This document shows, in pieces, positions 51,969 to 64,000 of a stretch of 64,000 bases of DNA. Source of the DNA: Phycisphaerae bacterium (GTDB lineage Bacteria; Planctomycetota; Phycisphaerae; Sedimentisphaerales; Anaerobacaceae). The stretch covers positions 132,019 through 196,018 of the forward strand of contig JAGOLX010000005.1 in NCBI GenBank assembly GCA_017993835.1, written 5' to 3'. The notes under the pieces were generated by a model that was given only the letters and a program-made list of their open reading frames with translations, had not been told where the DNA came from and made no database searches. Position 1 is the stretch's first letter; each line of letters starts with the position of its first letter. Position numbers and translations under genes: made by a program.

Positions 51969-54900
51969 TCAGCGTTCGGAGGCGGACTCCGACACTTTCA
52001 CAAGGCAGTCCTGCGTCACGGCCGCGACCTTCAGGCGGTTTAGGCCGCCGACCTGCTTGTCTCCGGCGCAGTAGCTCAGGATGGCTCGATTTTCCGTGAA
52101 GGTGATGGACGTGTAGCAGTACCATCCGTCGGGATTGGCCTCGATGATCTGCGACGGGCTCCAGGTCGCGCCTTCGTTCCTGCTGATTGCCATGCACAGA
52201 GGCGTTCGGCGGCCCTTGGGGAAGGGGTGCCGGCCGGTGTGGTCGTTCCAGACGCATAGCAGGTCGCCCGTCCAGGGGATTCTCGCGATGGTCGCAGGGC
52301 TCAGGGGCGATGCGAGGGGCGACGGGCCGGGATTGGACCACGTCTCGCCTTCATCGGACGAGTGGCAGACGTACTGGCTGCCGGCGTCGGTGCGGATGTA
52401 CATCATCAGTCGCCCGTCCTGGAGTTCGACCACTCCCGGCTCCTGGAAGGTGATTCGCCGGCCATCGGCGTTGTAGCCCTTGAACGGGTCCTTGCTGCGT
52501 CGCCAGGTCTTGCCGTTGTCGTCGGAGAGGTAACACAGGATCACGCCGGCAGAATCTCTGGGCTGGCCGGGACCCTGGTGCCAGGCCACCGGCAGGACGA
52601 GCCGGCCCGACCGGAGTTGGACCGCCCGATCGTTGTTCAGCACGTAGTAGCCGACCTCGTCGGTGATGCAACAGGCTGGCGAGCTCCAGGTGCGCCCCTC
52701 GTCCGTCGAGAGGCACATCATCGGCCGACAGTCCTCCTGCGACGTCTTGAGCAGGTAGAACAGGGCGATCTCGCCGCTCGCCAGGCGCAGCAGGGAGACG
52801 GACATAACGTTCAGGCCGCCGGTCCGCGGGACCAGGATCGCGTCGTCGCTCCAGGTTCGCCCGCCGTCCGACGAAGTCCGCAGGGCGAGGTCCGCCGCGG
52901 CATCGTCGTCGCCGCCGCCGGTGAAGCGGGTGTAGATCAGGCATAGACGCCCATCCTTCAACTCGACGATATCCCCCTCGGAATTCCGCGGATTGCCGGG
53001 ACTCGGATCGAGGACCAGCAGCGTCCGAACATCCGCCCGGGTTATGGAGAGGTCTCCATCGGCAGGGACCGTGAGCGTGTCCGCACCGCCGTCGCGTTGT
53101 ACAACGACGGTCAGTTTGCCGCCGGCCTGCGTGAGCTGAACGCGCGTGACCTGGGCCTGCCCACCCGCAGAAACCGGTTCCAGGACGGCCGCGAACGTGG
53201 CGTCCCGTCCCGTCCTGCCGATGATCGCCAGGGGCACCCGGTCGGTGATCGATCCGCCCACGCCGTCGCCAACGGTTATCGTCGTGTTCCGCTCGGGCGC
53301 CATCGTCAGATGGGTGGCGACTTTGGCGTCCTCGAACCGCACGCGGACCTCATCTGCCGTCGTACCTTGCTTGGCATTCCGGATGTACACGCCGCCCGGG
53401 TAGTTCGCGAAGTTCGCGTCGCTGGAGGCCGCGTCACACGCCGCCCGTTGGCCGCGATTGTGATAGAGCCATTCGAAGCGATGCTCGGCGTCCGATTGGA
53501 GATGATCCAGGACGAGCAGATAGGCGTCCGTCATGACGAGCCGACGGGTGTGCCGCACGCCGGGATAGGCGTCGTCGCATCGGGCCGCGACCGCAGTGAA
53601 GCCCTCGCCCTCTTGAAATCGCAGGAGCTTGCCCGCCGCGGGTTTCTGGCTTTGTCCGTCGACGAGGACCGTGTTGTGTGAGATCGTTGCCTTGTACCAG
53701 TTCGAGTGGATGGGCAGGCGATAGGCCTGGCTTCGGGCCCGACCGGGATCCACGCCCAGCTCCGTCCCGAATCCGTACAGTACGAAGCTGAGCTTGTCGT
53801 AATGGCCGTGGAAGCCGCCGTAGGGGCCGAACGTCATCGCGGCGGTCATTCCGGCTGGGCCACCTGCTCGCAGAATGGCGTGGCCCGCGTCGTCGAAGAC
53901 CATGCTCTTGAGGATGGGCGGGTCGGCCGTGACGTCGGTCGGTCGCCCGAGGAGGATGCTCTCGAAGGTCGGTTTGGTGGACAGCGGCGAGAGGATCTCC
54001 GGGGCCCTGTAAGCGTGGTACGCCGGCTCGAACGAGCGGCCGACGCCTTTGACGGAGGACCCGGTGTCGTCGCCGAATCGAGGCAACATGCCGTCGGCCA
54101 TCGTGTAATGGATGGGCAGCGTGAACATGCTCTTGAGTCGCTCGTCCGACCACAGATCGATCCCGAGACGTCGGGCAGTCTCCGCGGTGTTGATTAGCGC
54201 GTGCAGTGTGTAGAAGTGGTATCCCCAACTGTTCTCATACCACATCCCTTCCTTCGACACCGAAACGCCCATCTGGTAGCGGAACCCATTCTGCGGATCG
54301 TCGATCGCCTTCTGGACCCAGGAGGGGTCGCGAACCAGGGCGCCGCCCCAGATCATCGCAGCGTTGTGCCAGCTCTGCCAGTTGCCCTTGCCGGCCTTGT
54401 TCTTGTCGATGTTCTGGAGCATCGGCAGCAGGAGTCCCTCGCGGATCCTCTCGTGGTCGGCCGGCGTGAGGGTCTTGCTGTCGTGGATCAGGTCGTACGC
54501 CGGGCCGATCTCGGTCGCCATGCTGGCGGCTTCATTGAGCGTCTGCTCGAACAGGTGTCCACCCGAGCGGCTCGTCGTGTTCTGCGAGTTGCTGTGATAG
54601 GGGTACTGGCTGTACCGCTCGGCGTACCCGAGCAGGACGCTTGCGGCGTAGCGTGCGAATCTCTCGTCGCCCGAGATCGCATAGGCCCAGGCCGCGGTCG
54701 TCATCTGCTGGAGGTTCCGACCGTGCCGGCGAGCGAAGATCACGTCGTCGTAGGGGGGACCGCTGTAGACCGTCTGGCACTTCGGGCACTGGTGATGGGT
54801 GTCGTCGATCGTCTTGAGGGCGATCTCGCATTTGTCGCATTGGTACCACTGATTGTGCTGGCCGCCTCGTGGGGGGAATGTCACCGGTTCCTCGACGAAC

Positions 54901-55148
54901 CGTTCGGCCTCCCTGACACGAGCGGCCACGACATCTCGCTCCTGGCCTGCGCTCTGGCAAGCCTGGCGCAGTCTGGCGAGTTCCCCCGCGGTGCACGCCA
55001 GATGCGGATGTGACCCTCCAGGCAGGATCACCCTGGTTTCGGCCTGGGCCCAAGCGTGGTCCGCGGCAAAAAAAGTTGCAGAGAAAACCAACCCGGCGAT
55101 CAGAATTCGACTTCGGATTTGTGGGGTGCGTACGGCTGTGGGACTCAT
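51969..55148 (-). CDS. Exported heparinase-type lyase fused to a BNR sialidase-like domain
   Basis: 1059-residue exported fusion. After the signal peptide, a CxxC...CxxC zinc-ribbon-like insert (CDKCEIA, HHQCPKCQ, ~110-130) precedes an alpha/alpha-toroid. A heparinase II/III-type beta region follows (FGPYGGFHGHYDKLSFVLYG, LGVDPGRARSQAY, SHNTVLVDG). From ~residue 712 (SPGNPRNSEGDIVELKDG) a complete six-bladed sialidase-like propeller follows, with Asp-box motifs SSDGGRTWSD, STDEGRTWSS, SDDNGKTWRR, SSDEGETWSN and SRNEGATWSP. Both halves are usually separate proteins. The join has almost no linker. ATG 55148 with AGGAG upstream is preferred to 55220. Combined uronan lyase and exo-glycosidase activity is an inference. 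Confidence 0.83.
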   Translation of the reverse strand: MSPTAVRTPQIRSRILIAGLVFSATFFAADHAWAQAETRVILPGGSHPHLACTAGELARLRQACQSAGQERDVVAARVREAERFVEEPVTFPPRGGQHNQWYQCDKCEIALKTIDDTHHQCPKCQTVYSGPPYDDVIFARRHGRNLQQMTTAAWAYAISGDERFARYAASVLLGYAERYSQYPYHSNSQNTTSRSGGHLFEQTLNEAASMATEIGPAYDLIHDSKTLTPADHERIREGLLLPMLQNIDKNKAGKGNWQSWHNAAMIWGGALVRDPSWVQKAIDDPQNGFRYQMGVSVSKEGMWYENSWGYHFYTLHALINTAETARRLGIDLWSDERLKSMFTLPIHYTMADGMLPRFGDDTGSSVKGVGRSFEPAYHAYRAPEILSPLSTKPTFESILLGRPTDVTADPPILKSMVFDDAGHAILRAGGPAGMTAAMTFGPYGGFHGHYDKLSFVLYGFGTELGVDPGRARSQAYRLPIHSNWYKATISHNTVLVDGQSQKPAAGKLLRFQEGEGFTAVAARCDDAYPGVRHTRRLVMTDAYLLVLDHLQSDAEHRFEWLYHNRGQRAACDAASSDANFANYPGGVYIRNAKQGTTADEVRVRFEDAKVATHLTMAPERNTTITVGDGVGGSITDRVPLAIIGRTGRDATFAAVLEPVSAGGQAQVTRVQLTQAGGKLTVVVQRDGGADTLTVPADGDLSITRADVRTLLVLDPSPGNPRNSEGDIVELKDGRLCLIYTRFTGGGDDDAAADLALRTSSDGGRTWSDDAILVPRTGGLNVMSVSLLRLASGEIALFYLLKTSQEDCRPMMCLSTDEGRTWSSPACCITDEVGYYVLNNDRAVQLRSGRLVLPVAWHQGPGQPRDSAGVILCYLSDDNGKTWRRSKDPFKGYNADGRRITFQEPGVVELQDGRLMMYIRTDAGSQYVCHSSDEGETWSNPGPSPLASPLSPATIARIPWTGDLLCVWNDHTGRHPFPKGRRTPLCMAISRNEGATWSPSQIIEANPDGWYCYTSITFTENRAILSYCAGDKQVGGLNRLKVAAVTQDCLVKVSESASER

Positions 55149-55350
55149 CGTTTTCTCCTGCTTTCTTAAGGAATTACGCGTGTTGCGGCCCAGGATACCC
55201 GCGATGGGGCGCGGGTTCAAACCTAATGCTGTCGTACGAGGGGGGCTTTGCGCCTCGTGCCCTGAAATAGTGTATAATGGAAATACCGCAGGGCGCGAAC
55301 CATGCCGAGGGAATCAGGACGGTCGGCCGTGCCGTGCGGCGTGAGTCGCT

Positions 55351-57118: not shown

Positions 57119-57147
57119 TTGAGGTGCAGCAAGGCATGGCATATAAT
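57119..57147 (+). promoter_or_regulatory. Promoter of xseAB
   Basis: TTGAGG (57119-57124), a 17-bp spacer and TATAAT (57142-57147). Transcription would begin near 57154, only 2-3 nt before ATG 57157. Confidence 0.6.
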
Positions 57148-57156
57148 AGATCACCT

Positions 57157-58527
57157 ATGCAGTCGCAAACACAGACAAGGACGAAGGTGTACACGGTCAC
57201 CCAGGTGAACTCGCTGGTCCGGGACGTGCTGGCGGCCAACCTGCCATCCTGGCTGACCATCAAAGGCGAGATCACCGACTGGAAGCTGCACCAGAGCGGT
57301 CACTGCTACTTCAGTCTCAAGGACGAGGAGTCGGTGCTGCCCTGTGCGATGTGGCGAACGAGCTTCGCGAAGGTGAAATTCAAGCCGGCCAATGGTCTGG
57401 CCGTTCTGGTGAGCGGATCGATCGACCTGTACGTGCCGCAGGGTCGGTACAAACTGATCGTCGAGGAGATGATCCCGGCGGGTCTGGGCGCTCTGCAATT
57501 GGCGTTCGAGCAGATGGTCCGCAAGCTGGAAGCGGAAGGGCTCTTCGCGGAGTCGCACAAGAAGCCCATCCCCAGGTATCCCCAGCGGATCGGCGTCCTC
57601 ACGAGCGAGTCCGGCGCGGCGCTGCACGACATCGCGGACAGCGTTCACAATCGCTGGCCCTGCACCCGGCTGGTGCTGTATCCCGTCCCGGTCCAGGGGC
57701 CGGGGGCCGCGGAGGCGATTGCTGCCGCCATTGCGGACGTGAACCGGCGCAACGACCGGCTCCAGCTCGACGTCCTGATCGTCGGTCGCGGCGGCGGGTC
57801 GCTCGATGACCTCTGGGCCTTCAACGAGGAGGTGCTGGCCCGGGCCATCTTCGCGTCGCGAATCCCGATCATCAGCGCGGTCGGGCACGAGGTGGACGTG
57901 ACGGTCGCCGACCTAGTGGCGGACGCCCGGGCCTCGACGCCGACCAAGGCGGGCGTCGTCGCGGTGCCGGATCGCGAGGAGGTGCTGGCCGATCTGCTGA
58001 ACCAGCAGCGCCGCCTGACGGGGAGCATTCGTTCCCGGTTCGGCCTGTGCAGCGAGTACCTGAGCACCGTCCTTGCCAGCGCCGTGTTCCGCAACCCGCT
58101 GTTGCCGGTCTTGAACCGCGAGCAATGCGTGGACGATCTGGCGGGCGATCTGGGCGACGCCATGAGACAGGTCTTCTTCCAGGCCCAGAAGCAGGTTCAG
58201 GATTGCCACGAGCAGGTCGCGAGGATCGAGCCGCACCGCCTGCTCGGGCGGATGGCGGTGGAACTGAACGAACTGAAAGGGCGCGGTTTGGCCGCGGTCA
58301 CGCAGGCTCTCCATCGCAGGAATCTCCAGATCACCGCGCAGGAGAACCGTCTGGCCGGTCTGAACCCCCGCTCGGTTCTGAATCGCGGCTACAGCATCAC
58401 GCAGAACCTTCGCACCGGGCAGGTCGTGCGAACCGCTTGTGACGTGCAAATGGACGACCCGCTTGTGACCGAGCTGGCCCAGAACAATCGGATAGAGAGT
58501 CGGGTCACGAGAATTGATGAAGGATGA
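57157..58527 (+). CDS. xseA: Exodeoxyribonuclease VII large subunit
   Basis: 456-residue catalytic subunit of exonuclease VII, which degrades single-stranded DNA. An N-terminal OB fold (VYTVTQVNSLVRDVLAANL, LKDEESVLPCAMW) precedes the catalytic core (RIGVLTSESGAALHDI, DVLIVGRGGGSLDDLWAFN, PIISAVGHEVDVTVADLVAD, RASTPTKA) and a coiled-coil-rich tail ending NRGYSITQN. ATG 57157 is preferred because the promoter TATAAT lies between it and the alternative ATG 57136. If a longer transcript exists, ATG 57136 with GAGGT at 57121 is possible. xseB follows after 3 bp. Confidence 0.94.
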   Translation: MQSQTQTRTKVYTVTQVNSLVRDVLAANLPSWLTIKGEITDWKLHQSGHCYFSLKDEESVLPCAMWRTSFAKVKFKPANGLAVLVSGSIDLYVPQGRYKLIVEEMIPAGLGALQLAFEQMVRKLEAEGLFAESHKKPIPRYPQRIGVLTSESGAALHDIADSVHNRWPCTRLVLYPVPVQGPGAAEAIAAAIADVNRRNDRLQLDVLIVGRGGGSLDDLWAFNEEVLARAIFASRIPIISAVGHEVDVTVADLVADARASTPTKAGVVAVPDREEVLADLLNQQRRLTGSIRSRFGLCSEYLSTVLASAVFRNPLLPVLNREQCVDDLAGDLGDAMRQVFFQAQKQVQDCHEQVARIEPHRLLGRMAVELNELKGRGLAAVTQALHRRNLQITAQENRLAGLNPRSVLNRGYSITQNLRTGQVVRTACDVQMDDPLVTELAQNNRIESRVTRIDEG

Positions 58528-58530
58528 CGG

Positions 58531-58794
58531 ATGGCGGCTGAACGAAAATCCAAGGACGACTTGACCAAGCTGACGTTCGAGCAGGCGATTGGGCAGCTCA
58601 GGGAGATCGTGAACAAGATCGAGCAGGGTCAGATCCCGTTGCAGGACAGTCTCGATCAGTACGAGAAGGGGATGGCCCTCATCAAGCACTGCCGGGACAT
58701 TCTGCAGAAGGCCGAAAAGCGCATCGAGAAGATCTCCAAGGAAGAGCCGCCAGAGTCCCCGGAGGAGCAGGAGGAAGACGCCGAACCGTTTTGA
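58531..58794 (+). CDS. xseB: Exodeoxyribonuclease VII small subunit
   Basis: 87-residue helical subunit that assembles with XseA. The family core is clear (LTFEQAIGQLREIVNKIEQG, then SLDQYEKGMALIKHCRDIL), with an acidic tail (PPESPEEQEEDAEPF). The ATG lies 3 bp after the xseA stop, so the two are one translationally coupled unit. A stable hairpin (58817-58824 with 58844-58851) follows. Confidence 0.94.
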   Translation: MAAERKSKDDLTKLTFEQAIGQLREIVNKIEQGQIPLQDSLDQYEKGMALIKHCRDILQKAEKRIEKISKEEPPESPEEQEEDAEPF

Positions 58795-58859: not shown

Positions 58860-58885
58860 GGACCCGACGCCACAGACGTCGCCAT

Positions 58886-58969
58886 GCGAGCGTGGCGGAA
58901 CTGGCAGACGCGCAAGGTTTAGGTCCTTGTGTCCGGAAGGACGTGGAGGTTCGACCCCTCTCGCTCGCA
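58886..58969 (+). tRNA. tRNA-Leu (anticodon UAG)
   Basis: 84-nt class II tRNA. Acceptor arms GCGAGCG (58886-58892) and CGCTCGC (58962-58968) pair perfectly with discriminator A58969. The anticodon arm CAAGG-TTTAGGT-CCTTG gives anticodon UAG, reading CUA/CUN codons. A long variable arm (TGTCCGGAAGGACG) and a T loop TTCGACC support leucine identity. The 3' CCA is not encoded. Confidence 0.95.
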
Positions 58970-59011
58970 TTGGAACGCCAATGGATTGCACGGTTGGAGC
59001 AGGATGAAGTC

Positions 59012-59854
59012 ATGAAACGACGCCTTCTCGCTGTGGTTGCCTGTCTTACGCTCACAGTCTTGGCCTGTTCCTGCACTCCTGCGGCCAGGCGAGACGGTGC
59101 TCCCATCCGACTGGCGGTCCTGGGGGCGTTCGACCGCGAGGTGTCGTTGCTGGGCGAGATGCTGACCGATGCCCAGTCGCAGCGGATCGAAGGGATCGAG
59201 TTCCTTTCCGGCCGGGCGGGGGGGCAGCGAGTCGTGATCGCCTGGACCGGTGTCGGCAAGGTCAACGCCGCCATGGTCACGACCCTCCTGATCGAGCATT
59301 TCAAGCCGACGCAGGTTGTCTTTACCGGGATTGCCGGCGCGGTCGATCCGAACCTGGAGCCGGGCGACATCGTGATCGCACGGCAGACCGCCTACCATGA
59401 CATGGGCTCCTACTGGTCTGAAGGCATCGAGCCCGGCGGCGTGAAGAACCGCCTGACAGGGGACACGAACCCGGTCTTCTTCCCGGCCGACCCGAATCTG
59501 TTGGCCGCTGCCCGGCAGGCGGCCCCCAAGACGGCTTTCGACCTCATTGCCCACCGCAATGGCCAGCGAACGCCGCGGGTCGTCGTCGGGACCATCGTGA
59601 CGGGCGACACGTTCGTGTCCTCCAAGGAGAAATGTGCCGAGTTGGCTGAGAAGCTCGACGCCGACGCGGTCGAGATGGAGGGGGCTGCGGTGGCCCAGAT
59701 CTGCTACCAGCGGGGGATCGGATGCCTGGTCATTCGCAGCATCGCCGACAAGGCCGACGAGAGCGCGGTCGTGGATAAGCAGAAGTTCTATGCCTTGGCC
59801 GCGAGGAACTCGGCCACGCTCGTCGCGGTGATCCTGGAGGGCCTCAGACCATAG
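59012..59854 (+). CDS. Lipoprotein MTA/SAH nucleosidase (Pfs/MtnN-like)
   Basis: 280-residue nucleosidase with a lipoprotein signal (MKRRLLAVVACLTLTVLAC). The family hydrolyses methylthioadenosine and S-adenosylhomocysteine to adenine plus a thioribose. Alignment to E. coli MtnN by eye retains all catalytic residues: E43 (GAFDREV, E12 there), E223 (MEGAAVAQ, E174) and D246 (SIADKAD, D197), with the same 23-residue spacing. Other motifs are GVGKVNAAMVTTLLIEHF and FTGIAGAVDPNLEPGDIV. The usual enzyme is cytosolic, so export is the odd feature. A purine permease gene follows 13 bp later, suggesting that released adenine is taken up. ATG 59012 is preferred because the upstream frame lies in the tRNA gene. 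Confidence 0.85.
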   Translation: MKRRLLAVVACLTLTVLACSCTPAARRDGAPIRLAVLGAFDREVSLLGEMLTDAQSQRIEGIEFLSGRAGGQRVVIAWTGVGKVNAAMVTTLLIEHFKPTQVVFTGIAGAVDPNLEPGDIVIARQTAYHDMGSYWSEGIEPGGVKNRLTGDTNPVFFPADPNLLAAARQAAPKTAFDLIAHRNGQRTPRVVVGTIVTGDTFVSSKEKCAELAEKLDADAVEMEGAAVAQICYQRGIGCLVIRSIADKADESAVVDKQKFYALAARNSATLVAVILEGLRP

Positions 59855-59867
59855 GTGAGGGGACGGA

Positions 59868-61166
59868 ATGTTGAGGAAGTACTTCGAGCTTGAGAAGCAC
59901 CAAACGAGTCTGCGGGTCGAGGTGGTGGCCGGCGCCACGACCTTTCTGACCATGGCCTACATCATCTTCGTGAACCCGAACGTCCTGAGCGACGCAGGGA
60001 TGGACAAGAACGCCCTGATTGCGGTGACGTGCATCGTCAGCGCGATCTCGACGATTGCGGCGGGTGTCTTTGCCAACGCGCCCATCGCCATGGCGCCGGG
60101 CATGGGGCTCAACAGCTTCTTCGCCTACAGCCTCGTCGCCAAAGAGCAGGTCACCTGGCAGACGGCGCTGGGAGCGGTGTTCATCTCTGGCCTGTTCTTC
60201 CTGGTTCTCACGATGATCGGCCTGCGGAAGAAGCTCGTCGAAGCGATCCCGACGGGTCTGGTCTCGGCCATTGCGGTGGGCATTGGCCTGTTCATCGCGT
60301 TCATCGGGCTGGGCAACCTCGGGTTGGTCGTGCGGGACGAAAGGACGCTCTTCGCACTGGGCGACCTCACGAAGGCGACCGTCTGGATCGGCCTGCTGGG
60401 ACTCGTCGTGATGATCGTGCTGGGGGCCCTGCGGGTTACGGGTTCTCTGCTGATCGGGATCTTCTTCGCGACGATGGTGAGCGCCGTGTTCGGCTACGTG
60501 AGCAAGCCCACCGGCTGGGTTTCGGTGGATTGGCCTGTGGGTGAGCTGGCCATGAATCTGGACATCGTCGGCGCGCTGAAGATCAGCCTCTGGGGCAGCA
60601 TCTTCACGCTCATGTTCATTGATCTGTTCGACAGCATCGGCACGCTCGTCGCGTGTTGCGAAAAGGCGGGCATGCGGGATGAACGCGGCCAGATTCGGGC
60701 CCTTGACCGCCTGCTCGGGATCGATGCGGCGGCGACGATGGTCGGCGCCCTATTCGGGACCTCGACCACAACGTCGTATGTGGAGTCCGCCGCCGGGATC
60801 GAGCAGGGGGGACGGACGGGTCTGACTTCCGTAGTCACCGGGGTCCTGTTCTTCCTGGCGATGCTCTTCATGCCTGTGATTGCCGTCGTGCCAGGCTACG
60901 CAACGGCGCCGGCGCTGATTGTCGTCGGCTATTTTATGATGAAAGAAGCCCGCAAGATCAACTACCGCAGAGTCGATGAACTGATTCCCTCGCTCGTTAT
61001 CGTGGTCATGATCGCGGTGAGTTACCAGATCAGCATGGGCCTTGCGCTCGGGTTCGTTTCGTTCGTCGTTTTGAAAGCTGTGGTGGGTCGGCACAAGGAG
61101 ATTCACGGAGCGATGTGGATCATCGCCGGTTTGTCGGTCGTGTTTCTGACCATCCGAGTATTCTGA
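59868..61166 (+). CDS. NCS2-family purine permease (AzgA-like)
   Basis: 432-residue inner-membrane transporter with about 12 membrane segments. It belongs to the AzgA-like adenine/guanine/hypoxanthine branch of NCS2: FELEKHQTSLRVEVVAGATTF at the start, APGMGLNSFFAYSLV, FIDLFDSIGTLVACCEKAGM and FGTSTTTSYVESAAGI are branch signatures. Proton-coupled uptake of purine bases is expected. Starting 13 bp after the exported nucleosidase, it forms a plausible salvage pair for extracellular adenine. The isomerase-like gene begins 12 bp after its stop. Confidence 0.92.
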   Translation: MLRKYFELEKHQTSLRVEVVAGATTFLTMAYIIFVNPNVLSDAGMDKNALIAVTCIVSAISTIAAGVFANAPIAMAPGMGLNSFFAYSLVAKEQVTWQTALGAVFISGLFFLVLTMIGLRKKLVEAIPTGLVSAIAVGIGLFIAFIGLGNLGLVVRDERTLFALGDLTKATVWIGLLGLVVMIVLGALRVTGSLLIGIFFATMVSAVFGYVSKPTGWVSVDWPVGELAMNLDIVGALKISLWGSIFTLMFIDLFDSIGTLVACCEKAGMRDERGQIRALDRLLGIDAAATMVGALFGTSTTTSYVESAAGIEQGGRTGLTSVVTGVLFFLAMLFMPVIAVVPGYATAPALIVVGYFMMKEARKINYRRVDELIPSLVIVVMIAVSYQISMGLALGFVSFVVLKAVVGRHKEIHGAMWIIAGLSVVFLTIRVF

Positions 61167-61178
61167 AGGAGTAACGCA

Positions 61179-62003
61179 ATGGGCAAGATCGGGATTGGCG
61201 TGAATATGGAGTACGTGCGGCATGCGGACAAGAGCTTCGAGTGGGGCGTCGAGAAGGCCGCGGAACTGGGGTATGAGTTCATCGAGCCCTGGGTCCATCT
61301 GGGCCGGGAACTGATGAGCGAGGCCGGCTACTACATGACGATTTCCATGTACGAGGACCCGTGCCGCATCCGGAAGATCTGCGAGAAGGCAGGCGTGAAG
61401 CTCTCGGGCCTGTCGTCGCACACGGCGCTGTGCCGGCCGGATGTGAGCGGCAACTACCTCAAGCAGGCGATTCGTTTCGCCGCCGAGTGCGGCGCGCCGG
61501 TGGTCAATACGGACGAGGGCCCCAAACCCCGCTGGACCACGCGACAGGAGGATCATGTCCTGATGAAGTACACACTGACGGAAGCGGCCGCGTTTGCGGA
61601 GAACCGCGGCATTCTGATCGGGATCGAGCCCCATCAGCAGTACAGCAAGACGCCAGCCGGCCTGGACCGGATTGCCAGTCTCGTGGATTCGCCAGCCATT
61701 GGCATCAATTTCGACACGGGCAACTCGTACCTGAGCGGCCACGATCCGATCGAGTGGCTCGAACACGTGAGAAGCAGACTGGTCCACTTGCATGCCAAGG
61801 ACATCTCCATCCAACACTCCAAGGCCGAGCGTGGCAAGGTCACCGGCACGCCCTCCGGCTGTGCCTGCGGCGACGGCGTGATCGACTGGAAGAAGGTGAT
61901 CGCGGTCTGCCGGAAGGCCCCGCGTGACATCGTCCTGAGCGTCGAGTGCGGCACGATCGAGCAGGCCGAGCGGAGCATCAAGCATCTCAGACAGTTCGTC
62001 TGA
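61179..62003 (+). CDS. Sugar-phosphate isomerase/epimerase TIM barrel
   Basis: 274-residue xylose-isomerase-like TIM barrel without a signal peptide, so cytosolic. Metal-site strands are visible: EFIEPWVHLG, GLSSHTALCRPD, PVVNTDEGP, ILIGIEPHQQY, INFDTGNSYLSG, HLHAKDIS and LSVECGT. Members include hydroxypyruvate isomerases, tagatose epimerases and inosose dehydratases; the specific reaction cannot be told from sequence. AAGGAG precedes the ATG by about 8 nt. It may start a second functional group (TIM barrel, DUF6807, Gfo/Idh) that often co-occurs for processing oxidised sugars. Confidence 0.87.
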   Translation: MGKIGIGVNMEYVRHADKSFEWGVEKAAELGYEFIEPWVHLGRELMSEAGYYMTISMYEDPCRIRKICEKAGVKLSGLSSHTALCRPDVSGNYLKQAIRFAAECGAPVVNTDEGPKPRWTTRQEDHVLMKYTLTEAAAFAENRGILIGIEPHQQYSKTPAGLDRIASLVDSPAIGINFDTGNSYLSGHDPIEWLEHVRSRLVHLHAKDISIQHSKAERGKVTGTPSGCACGDGVIDWKKVIAVCRKAPRDIVLSVECGTIEQAERSIKHLRQFV

Positions 62004-62007
62004 CAGG

Positions 62008-62030
62008 AGCACGGGCATCCTGCCCATGCT
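62008..62030. repeat. Short GGGCA-TGCCC palindrome
   Basis: AGCACGGGCA (62008-62017) and TGCCCATGCT (62021-62030) form a 10-bp hairpin with one mismatch and a 3-nt loop, followed by ACGAAAG. The TGCCC/GGGCA core and the CTACGA tail recall the double-hairpin repeat at 6651-6727, so it may be a solo arm of that family. Confidence 0.45.
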
Positions 62031-62050
62031 ACGAAAGTGAAGGGAAACCT

Positions 62051-63016
62051 ATGAGCAGAATGAGTGTGCTACTCGTCGTAGCGGTGATCGTGTTCGTCTG
62101 CCTCCAGCCAGTCCAGGCACAGCAGCCGCTGCAATTGACGCTGGATGCCAATAGTGTCTGGATACGAGCCGGGCAATCGCCCATTCTCCAGTATCGCTAC
62201 GGCGATGTCCCGTTCAAGCCGTACGTCAAGGAACTCTACACTCCCGGCGGACTGAACGTCCTGCTCGACGCCCCCTCCGATCATCTGCACCACCACGCGT
62301 TGATGTTCGCAGTGGCTGTGGACGGTGTGAATTTCTGGGAGGAGACGCCGGCGGCCGGGCGACAGTCGCAGCAGGGGGATTCCACGAGCGTGGTGATAGC
62401 CGAGCATGGGGGTGGACCTAGCGCCGGTTTCCGCGTGACGCCGGCCTGGATAGACGCCGCCGGCCGCCGAGGCGAGTTGAGTGAGATACGCACGATCGAG
62501 GTCTGCCGGATCAACAAGCTGGCGGCTACCGTCGTGACCTGGCGCAGTGATCTGGCTGTTCCGAAGAACAAGCAGACGGTTACTCTGTCCGGGTCCCACT
62601 ACTTCGGGTTGGGCATGCGATTCGTTCGAGCCATGGACGCAGGCGACTTCTTCAACGCCGACGGCAACGAAGGAACGGTCTTTCGTGGCGAAGAGAAGCT
62701 GGTGCAGTCGGACTGGTGCGCGTACCGCGCGGCAATCGACGGCAAGCCGGTGACAGTCGCCATGCTGGGACACCCGGCCAATCCCCGCCATCCAACGACG
62801 TGGTTCACGATGGCCAGGCCTTTCGGGTACCTATCGGCGACGCTGAATCTCCATGAGAAGCCGCTGACCATGTCCTCGGGAGAGCAACTGGTCTTGCGGT
62901 ACGCGGTTGTGGCCTGGGACGGCAGCGTGGGAAAGGATCATATCGACGAGGCATATCGGTGGTTTGTGGGTGATTATGCACAGGCAGCAGAAGGAGTGAA
63001 ACAGAATGGCAAATAA
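62051..63016 (+). CDS. Exported DUF6807 (PmoA-like) protein
   Basis: 321-residue exported beta-sandwich protein. Signal peptide MSRMSVLLVVAVIVFVCLQP ends near VQA-Q. Family landmarks are YVKELYTPGGLNVLLDAPSDH, HLHHHALMFAVAVDGVNFWE, GLGMRFVRAMDAGDFFNADG, NPRHPTTWFTMARPFGYLSAT and YAVVAWDG. DUF6807 proteins accompany Gfo/Idh oxidoreductases and glycan-degradation genes in planctomycetes and Bacteroidetes; their activity is not established as far as I know. AAGGGA lies 5 nt upstream of the ATG. Its last 11 nt overlap the next gene. Confidence 0.8.
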   Translation: MSRMSVLLVVAVIVFVCLQPVQAQQPLQLTLDANSVWIRAGQSPILQYRYGDVPFKPYVKELYTPGGLNVLLDAPSDHLHHHALMFAVAVDGVNFWEETPAAGRQSQQGDSTSVVIAEHGGGPSAGFRVTPAWIDAAGRRGELSEIRTIEVCRINKLAATVVTWRSDLAVPKNKQTVTLSGSHYFGLGMRFVRAMDAGDFFNADGNEGTVFRGEEKLVQSDWCAYRAAIDGKPVTVAMLGHPANPRHPTTWFTMARPFGYLSATLNLHEKPLTMSSGEQLVLRYAVVAWDGSVGKDHIDEAYRWFVGDYAQAAEGVKQNGK

Positions 63017-64000
63017 GGGGAAGTCTGCAAGCAGGAATCAATTGAACCGTCGGCGGTTTCTGCGGGGAGCAGGCGGCGTCGCAGCGGCAGGGATGGTCCT
63101 TGCCTCATCGAGTCCATCGACGGTGAAGGGCGCCAACGACCGCCTGGGTATCGGCTTCATCGGCTGCGGCGGGCGGAGCGGGGCGCATTTCCAGGCTCTG
63201 CACTGGCTCATGACGCAGGCGAAGGAGCCCATTGAGATCGTCGCGGCCTGCGACGTGTATCGACCCCGGCTCAAACAGCGGGTCGACGGCTACGGCGGCA
63301 AGGCCTACATGGACCACCGTGAGCTACTGGCCGACCCCAACGTGGACGTGGTCTGCATCTCCACGCCGGACCACCTGCACGGCTATCAGGCTATCGACGC
63401 CCTCAAAGCGGGCAAGCACGTCTATTGCGAGAAGCCTGTCACCCACTGGCGGCAGTTCGAGCTGACCAAGGAACTGGCCCGCGTCGCCCGCGAGTCGAAG
63501 GGCGTCATGCAGGTCGGCACGCAGGGCATGGCGGACACCGCCTGGCGCCAGATCCGCAAGCTCATCGAAGACGGCCTGATCGGCAAGCCCATCCACGCGG
63601 AGTGTGGCTATTTCCGCGTCGGCGACTGGGGCGAGCGGGGCATGCCCGTCGACGACCCCAACGCCAAACCCGGTCCCGACCTGAACTGGGAAGCGTTCCT
63701 GGGCGATTCACCGAAGAGACCGTTTGACGTGAGCCGGTTCTTTCGCTGGCGGATGTATGAGGACTACGCGGGCGGGCCCTCGACGGACCTGTTCCCGCAC
63801 GGCCTGACGCCGATGCTGTATATGCTGGGCGTCAACATGCCCAGCACGGTCGTCGCCACCGGAGGCAAGTTCCGCTACTCGGAGCGTGAGATCCCCGACA
63901 CCTTCAACACGCTGATCGACTATCCCGAAGGGATCACCGTCGCGGTCCTCGGCACCCAGGGCAACGATTACCCCGGCACCGGCTTCCGTGGCGCCCCCGG
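63006..64000 (+). CDS. Tat-exported Gfo/Idh/MocA oxidoreductase (3' end outside window)
   Basis: At least 331 residues, cut by the window end. The N-terminus has a twin-arginine signal (NRRRFLRGAGGVAAAGM). The Rossmann domain begins GIGFIGCGGRSGAHFQAL and continues EIVAACDVYRPRL and VDVVCISTPDHLHGYQAIDAL. The catalytic family motif is AGKHVYCEKPVTHW. Members use tightly bound NAD(P) for sugar oxidoreduction or, in some cases, glycosidase-like chemistry. Its ATG lies within the last codons of the DUF6807 gene (11-nt overlap), indicating translational coupling and joint function. Confidence 0.9.
   Translation, partial: MANKGKSASRNQLNRRRFLRGAGGVAAAGMVLASSSPSTVKGANDRLGIGFIGCGGRSGAHFQALHWLMTQAKEPIEIVAACDVYRPRLKQRVDGYGGKAYMDHRELLADPNVDVVCISTPDHLHGYQAIDALKAGKHVYCEKPVTHWRQFELTKELARVARESKGVMQVGTQGMADTAWRQIRKLIEDGLIGKPIHAECGYFRVGDWGERGMPVDDPNAKPGPDLNWEAFLGDSPKRPFDVSRFFRWRMYEDYAGGPSTDLFPHGLTPMLYMLGVNMPSTVVATGGKFRYSEREIPDTFNTLIDYPEGITVAVLGTQGNDYPGTGFRGAP

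Follow-up and report, generated by a model that had tools for sequence, protein, structure and literature searches.

A conserved pair of genes for a predicted exported MtnN-type nucleosidase and an AzgA-type purine permease in a family of Planctomycetota

Why would a bacterium with a complete cytosolic route for the disposal of MTA and SAH also keep an MtnN-type nucleosidase behind an apparent export signal, directly in front of a gene for a purine permease? The question arises in the window, that is, the whole stretch of 64,000 nucleotides of DNA analysed here, with the following features around the two genes:

57139..58794, + strand: xseA (57139-58527) and xseB (58531-58794), conserved 5′ neighbours (PF02601, PF02609; xseAB-(mtnN)-azgA context in relatives)
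58885..58970, + strand: tRNA-Leu, between xseB and mtnN (ARAGORN; Rfam RF00005)
59012..59854, + strand: predicted exported MtnN-type nucleosidase, 280 aa (PF01048, NF004079 and TIGR01704 above cut-offs; E43/E223/D246; model Z ~30 against solved MTANs)
59012..59074, + strand: predicted signal peptide to the conserved Cys21 (Cys19 as alternative lipidation residue), with a linker to about residue 31 (sequence; relatives; AF2)
59868..61166, + strand: AzgA/COG2252-type purine permease, 432 aa, sole copy in the genome (PF00860; best PDB relatives AZG1/AZG2; single own-genome match; adjoining in 29/32 family genomes)
61179..62003, + strand: xylose isomerase-like TIM barrel, 12 bp 3′ of the permease (PF01261)
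62051..63016, + strand: DUF6807 protein with signal peptide (PF14100)
63006..63998, + strand: Gfo/Idh/MocA oxidoreductase with Tat-type signal, exceeding the window end (PF01408; PF10518 slightly below its cut-off)

The nucleosidase reads from an ATG at 59012 to a stop at 59854 and the permease from an ATG at 59868 to a stop at 61166, with 13 bases separating them, exactly as an earlier note on this DNA had placed them. In the region 5′ of mtnN, an Rfam search for riboswitches or other RNAs at the gathering threshold returned the tRNA-Leu alone. Further upstream, the minus strand (51969-55220) encodes a protein of 1083 aa with heparinase II/III-like and alginate lyase-like parts and a BNR (sialidase-like) domain, which may be a fusion.

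A nucleosidase with an export-type leader

The first gene product belongs to the PF01048 family (E 2e-54) and scores above the cut-offs of the curated models NF004079 (215 bits, cut-off 169) and TIGR01704 (145 bits, cut-off 73.8). Its AF2 model, built from seven sequences, has a pLDDT of 81.7 and superposes through VIA-align on the solved structures 3eei and 5b7q (Z 30.5, rmsd 2.6-2.7, 228-231 aligned residues). The catalytic residues E43, E223 and D246, which the earlier note had regarded as kept, do align with E12, E174 and D197 of the Salmonella/E. coli enzyme, and R242 with R193. Positions for catalysis and adenine contact are conserved: F151, M173, E174, R193 and D197 (E. coli numbering) are present in all 32 genomes of the family with a close homologue, and the E12 position is occupied by E in 28 of these predicted exported proteins and by D in the remaining 4. 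Those with Asp are four genus siblings (L003, L006, L008 and L009), the window copy having Glu. A second group of exported MtnN paralogues (L057 from genome G004, L059 from G031) lacks an adjoining AzgA and carries Asn at the D197 position; since the title of PDB entry 1z5o describes a crystallised E. coli D197N mutant with uncleaved MTA, these paralogues may be binders instead of enzymes. A role as aminodeoxyfutalosine nucleosidase of the menaquinone route was also considered and rejected, MqnA/MqnD being absent from the window's own genome and present in 3 of 9 genus genomes.

The leader of the nucleosidase, MKRRLLAVVACLTLTVLACSC, combines a positive n-region with an extended hydrophobic segment (2.8 as the highest Kyte-Doolittle mean over nine residues), and the AF2 model shows a helix at residues 2-19 followed by a segment with pLDDT < 50 at 19-29. 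Export was judged by comparison with the 32 family genomes mentioned above, whose homologues are 54-73% identical, the family being the window's group of uncultured Phycisphaerae/Sedimentisphaerales. All visible N-termini of the family have an in-frame ATG that lies about 30 to 50 residues ahead of the core, and contain basic residues and a hydrophobic stretch; a by-eye count finds a Cys at the C21 position in 26 of 31 proteins, with canonical lipoboxes such as LLSSC, LLGSC and LIASC at that position in relatives. Cytosolic MtnN proteins of the same order and phylum start at the catalytic core and have no leader. The five copies lacking C21 (L014, L016, L025, L031 and L061) include some with signal-peptidase-I-like endings (SYAEDP, LHAGEE), which also occur in the more distant L063, so that a few family copies seem to use signal peptidase I and not lipidation. 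Thus, from the earlier claim of a lipoprotein signal, the export-type leader stands and is kept in relatives, but the lipobox of the window copy itself is non-canonical (V-L-A-C19 or A-C-S-C21), and because of this weakness its lipidation is likely but not certain.

On the other hand, the protein could be cytosolic, if its start has been mis-called or if the leader is a signal-like helix without export function. A short form could begin at TTG codon 17, which together with GTG codon 8 makes up the only in-frame alternative starts between the ATG at 59012 and the core, and the non-canonical lipobox would also fit. Both codons, however, lie within the signal and are missing from most relatives, whereas the ATG, the charged n-region, the hydrophobic core and Cys21 are common to them; moreover, true cytosolic homologues have no such extension and MTAP is retained. 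A start downstream of the signal, the event that would have undone the original idea, is therefore not what the relatives indicate, and a cytosolic location appears very unlikely.

Export of an MTAN alone is not new, since several cases have been described. The earlier note had pointed to Borrelia Bgp, a valid precedent that turns out to be one of several. A periplasmic MTA/SAH nucleosidase of Aeromonas hydrophila has been solved (PDB 5b7g/n/p/q; Xu et al. 2017, as cited in PMC6302742), and its host, like the window's genome, combines an exported MTAN with cytosolic MTA handling. The fold is the same (Z ~30), but the window nucleosidase is distant from it (57 bits to 5b7g; the match to the cytosolic Bacillus anthracis enzyme 4qez reaches 132), and membership in the Aeromonas periplasmic subfamily was rejected on these scores. 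Borrelia has two exported MTANs, Bgp and a plasmid MtnN, which are signal-bearing like the window copy, active, and proposed suppliers of transportable adenine (PMC7557402), although Bgp also binds glycosaminoglycans and identity is low (25-32% for plasmid copies). In Acinetobacter, an MTAN is secreted by the type II system (PMC9245377); L084, which we infer to be its orthologue, has a lipobox-like LVGC signal as in the window's family, but is very divergent (end branch of 7.9 in the tree), and its next downstream gene is no same-strand permease. A signal-like leader is also found in an alphaproteobacterial homologue (L055). In the unrooted tree, the label 'exported' needs one change, with the Acinetobacter and Palleronia branches too long to place.

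Pairing with an AzgA-type permease

The assignment of the second gene to the AzgA-like permeases was well founded: it scores 138 bits against PF00860 (cut-off 27), and its best PDB relatives are the plant adenine/guanine permeases AZG1 (E 1e-64) and AZG2 (E 1e-52), members of the same AzgA/COG2252 sequence family. A literature search found no account of the binding residues of AZG1. The neighbourhood survey confirms conservation of the pair: in 29 of the 32 nucleosidase-bearing family genomes the next gene is the permease, on the same strand. In G059 one gene lies between, and no AzgA was found in G070 and G017. Neither the signal nor the pair is a product of chance, as both are found again in other members of the family. 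No report of a conserved pair of exported MTAN and purine permease was found in the open-access literature, and the pairing in Planctomycetota appears to be new.

How far the adjacency reflects function is a matter of its genomic context. In relatives, the nucleosidase is often preceded by xseA-xseB, and in relatives without mtnN (L087, L091 and L093) xseB adjoins azgA directly. Within L099 (2772-2894, genome G041), an mtnN remnant lies between xseB and azgA, an instance of gene decay in place. Many genomes of the order (96 of 161) also have AzgA but not the nucleosidase. Because of the mtnN-less arrangements and the remnant, mtnN is an optional gene of a wider xseAB-azgA context and its adjacency is partly an inherited position. 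Within one genus, AzgA types have been exchanged in place behind a near-constant nucleosidase, as seen on comparing L006 with L008, L009 and L010: the MtnN of L006 and L008 are 78% identical and their AzgA 64%, and AzgA of L008 and L009 are 89% identical. That the pair persists though the permease type switches counts against mere inheritance.

Beyond the permease, the TIM barrel, DUF6807 and Gfo/Idh/MocA genes (61179-63998) make up a module found after AzgA whether mtnN is present or not (L094 and L100), and conservation is higher for the TIM barrel (75-93%) than for the nucleosidase. This sugar-isomerase-like protein and the oxidoreductase would suit a device that mainly clears excreted MTA or 5′-deoxyadenosine, or uses their ribose part, with adenine uptake as a secondary benefit. 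However, MTR kinase is absent from the window's own genome, and these downstream genes follow AzgA in L094 and L100, which have no mtnN, and are absent from this place in several pair-bearing genomes. Such detoxification or carbon use is improbable as the main role; the TIM barrel probably has a loosely linked, separate function, and the DUF6807 gene is likewise only loosely linked to the pair.

Cytosolic enzymes and the substrate pocket

The own genome (99% complete) encodes only two PNP_UDP_1 proteins. One is the nucleosidase with its export-type leader, the other a cytosolic MTAP, which scores 276.9 bits (cut-off 274.85). SAH hydrolase (AhcY) occurs in all nine genus genomes and adenine phosphoribosyltransferase (Apt) in eight of them, the own genome included in both cases. 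The nucleosidase is thus spare in the cytosol, and a housekeeping role there was discarded, MTAP and AhcY being already at hand. Across the family, MTAP accompanies the exported MtnN in 27 of 32 genomes and the cytosolic MtnN in 0 of 4 (Fisher p 0.002, a value that ignores relatedness, the four cytosolic genomes G042, G044, G048 and G049 coming from two genera). Cytosolic MtnN seems to replace MTAP, and exported MtnN does not.

The fold, the catalytic residues and the matches to curated HMMs are shared with cytosolic MtnN/Pfs of E. coli, Salmonella and B. anthracis, which differ in the absence of a signal and in the aromatic F207 and the M9 of the 5′ pocket. In the window copy, these two positions clearly align with K256 and F40, respectively. 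Phe occupies the F207 position in 12 of the 14 cytosolic homologues; among the 32 exported ones it never does, and 24 of them have Lys there. At the M9 position, Met prevails in the cytosolic group (12 of 14) and Phe in the exported group (27 of 32). The E. coli loop 102-113, which together with F207 and M9 we take to surround the 5′ substituent, is rewritten and longer in the exported enzyme. These changes would fit a shift in specificity, the true substrate being adenosine or a different nucleoside whose 5′ group is polar or small, and the permease keeping its role. Against this, two alignments pair the loop residues differently, the model is least confident there (pLDDT < 50 at residues 131-137), the pocket roles are general background on the E. 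coli enzyme, and the scores still exceed the MTAN equivalog cut-offs. A shift of this kind is possible, at a fairly low probability. With the 5′ pocket differing from that of cytosolic MtnN, MTA and SAH are possible, not established, substrates and may not be the main ones.

A last proposal, made in the earlier note, concerns interference with AI-2 signalling of neighbours. MTAN contributes to AI-2 synthesis within cells, which gives the idea some basis, but SAH and SRH, the intermediates of this synthesis, are intracellular, LuxS is present in just one genus genome of nine, which is not the own one, and no signalling gene lies nearby. The proposal is unsupported and has hardly any probability.

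Probable extracellular cleavage and adenine import

The best explanation, and a reasonably probable one, starts with the export of the nucleosidase, which would be mostly lipid-anchored and would act outside the cytoplasmic membrane, splitting adenine nucleosides (MTA, 5′-deoxyadenosine, adenosine or relatives). The adjoining AzgA would then bring the freed adenine into the cell, where Apt would convert it to AMP, and the pair would probably act as a scavenging device. Family membership, catalytic residues, the conserved signal and pairing, and the spare cytosolic enzymes form its established basis, from which we infer activity, substrate, transport specificity, the direction of adenine flow and the topology (periplasmic face or cell surface). 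As to the original proposal of surface cleavage and adenine import, this remains the best reading and fits a genome with MTAP, AhcY and Apt in the cytosol, MTA and SAH being its uncertain part. Points against it are the inherited adjacency, AzgA without nucleosidase, the exceptions G070, G017 and G059, the D at E12 in four siblings and the altered 5′ pocket. A more specific version, in which the extracellular nucleosidase is particular to this lineage, has a rebuilt 5′ site and cleaves adenosine or some nucleoside other than MTA, forms a two-part surface unit of cleavage and import with AzgA, and arose separately from the exported MTANs of Aeromonas, Borrelia and Acinetobacter, is conceivable but rather doubtful.

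In any case, mtnN-azgA is a real, conserved two-gene unit of a planctomycete family, most likely with a role in extracellular nucleoside cleavage and adenine import. If so, external cleavage of nucleosides with import of the free base would be a settled strategy in this family, which would account for the retention of an MTAN alongside full MTA/SAH disposal in the cytosol, and would imply that MTA, 5′-deoxyadenosine or adenosine are available in the communities hosting these bacteria.
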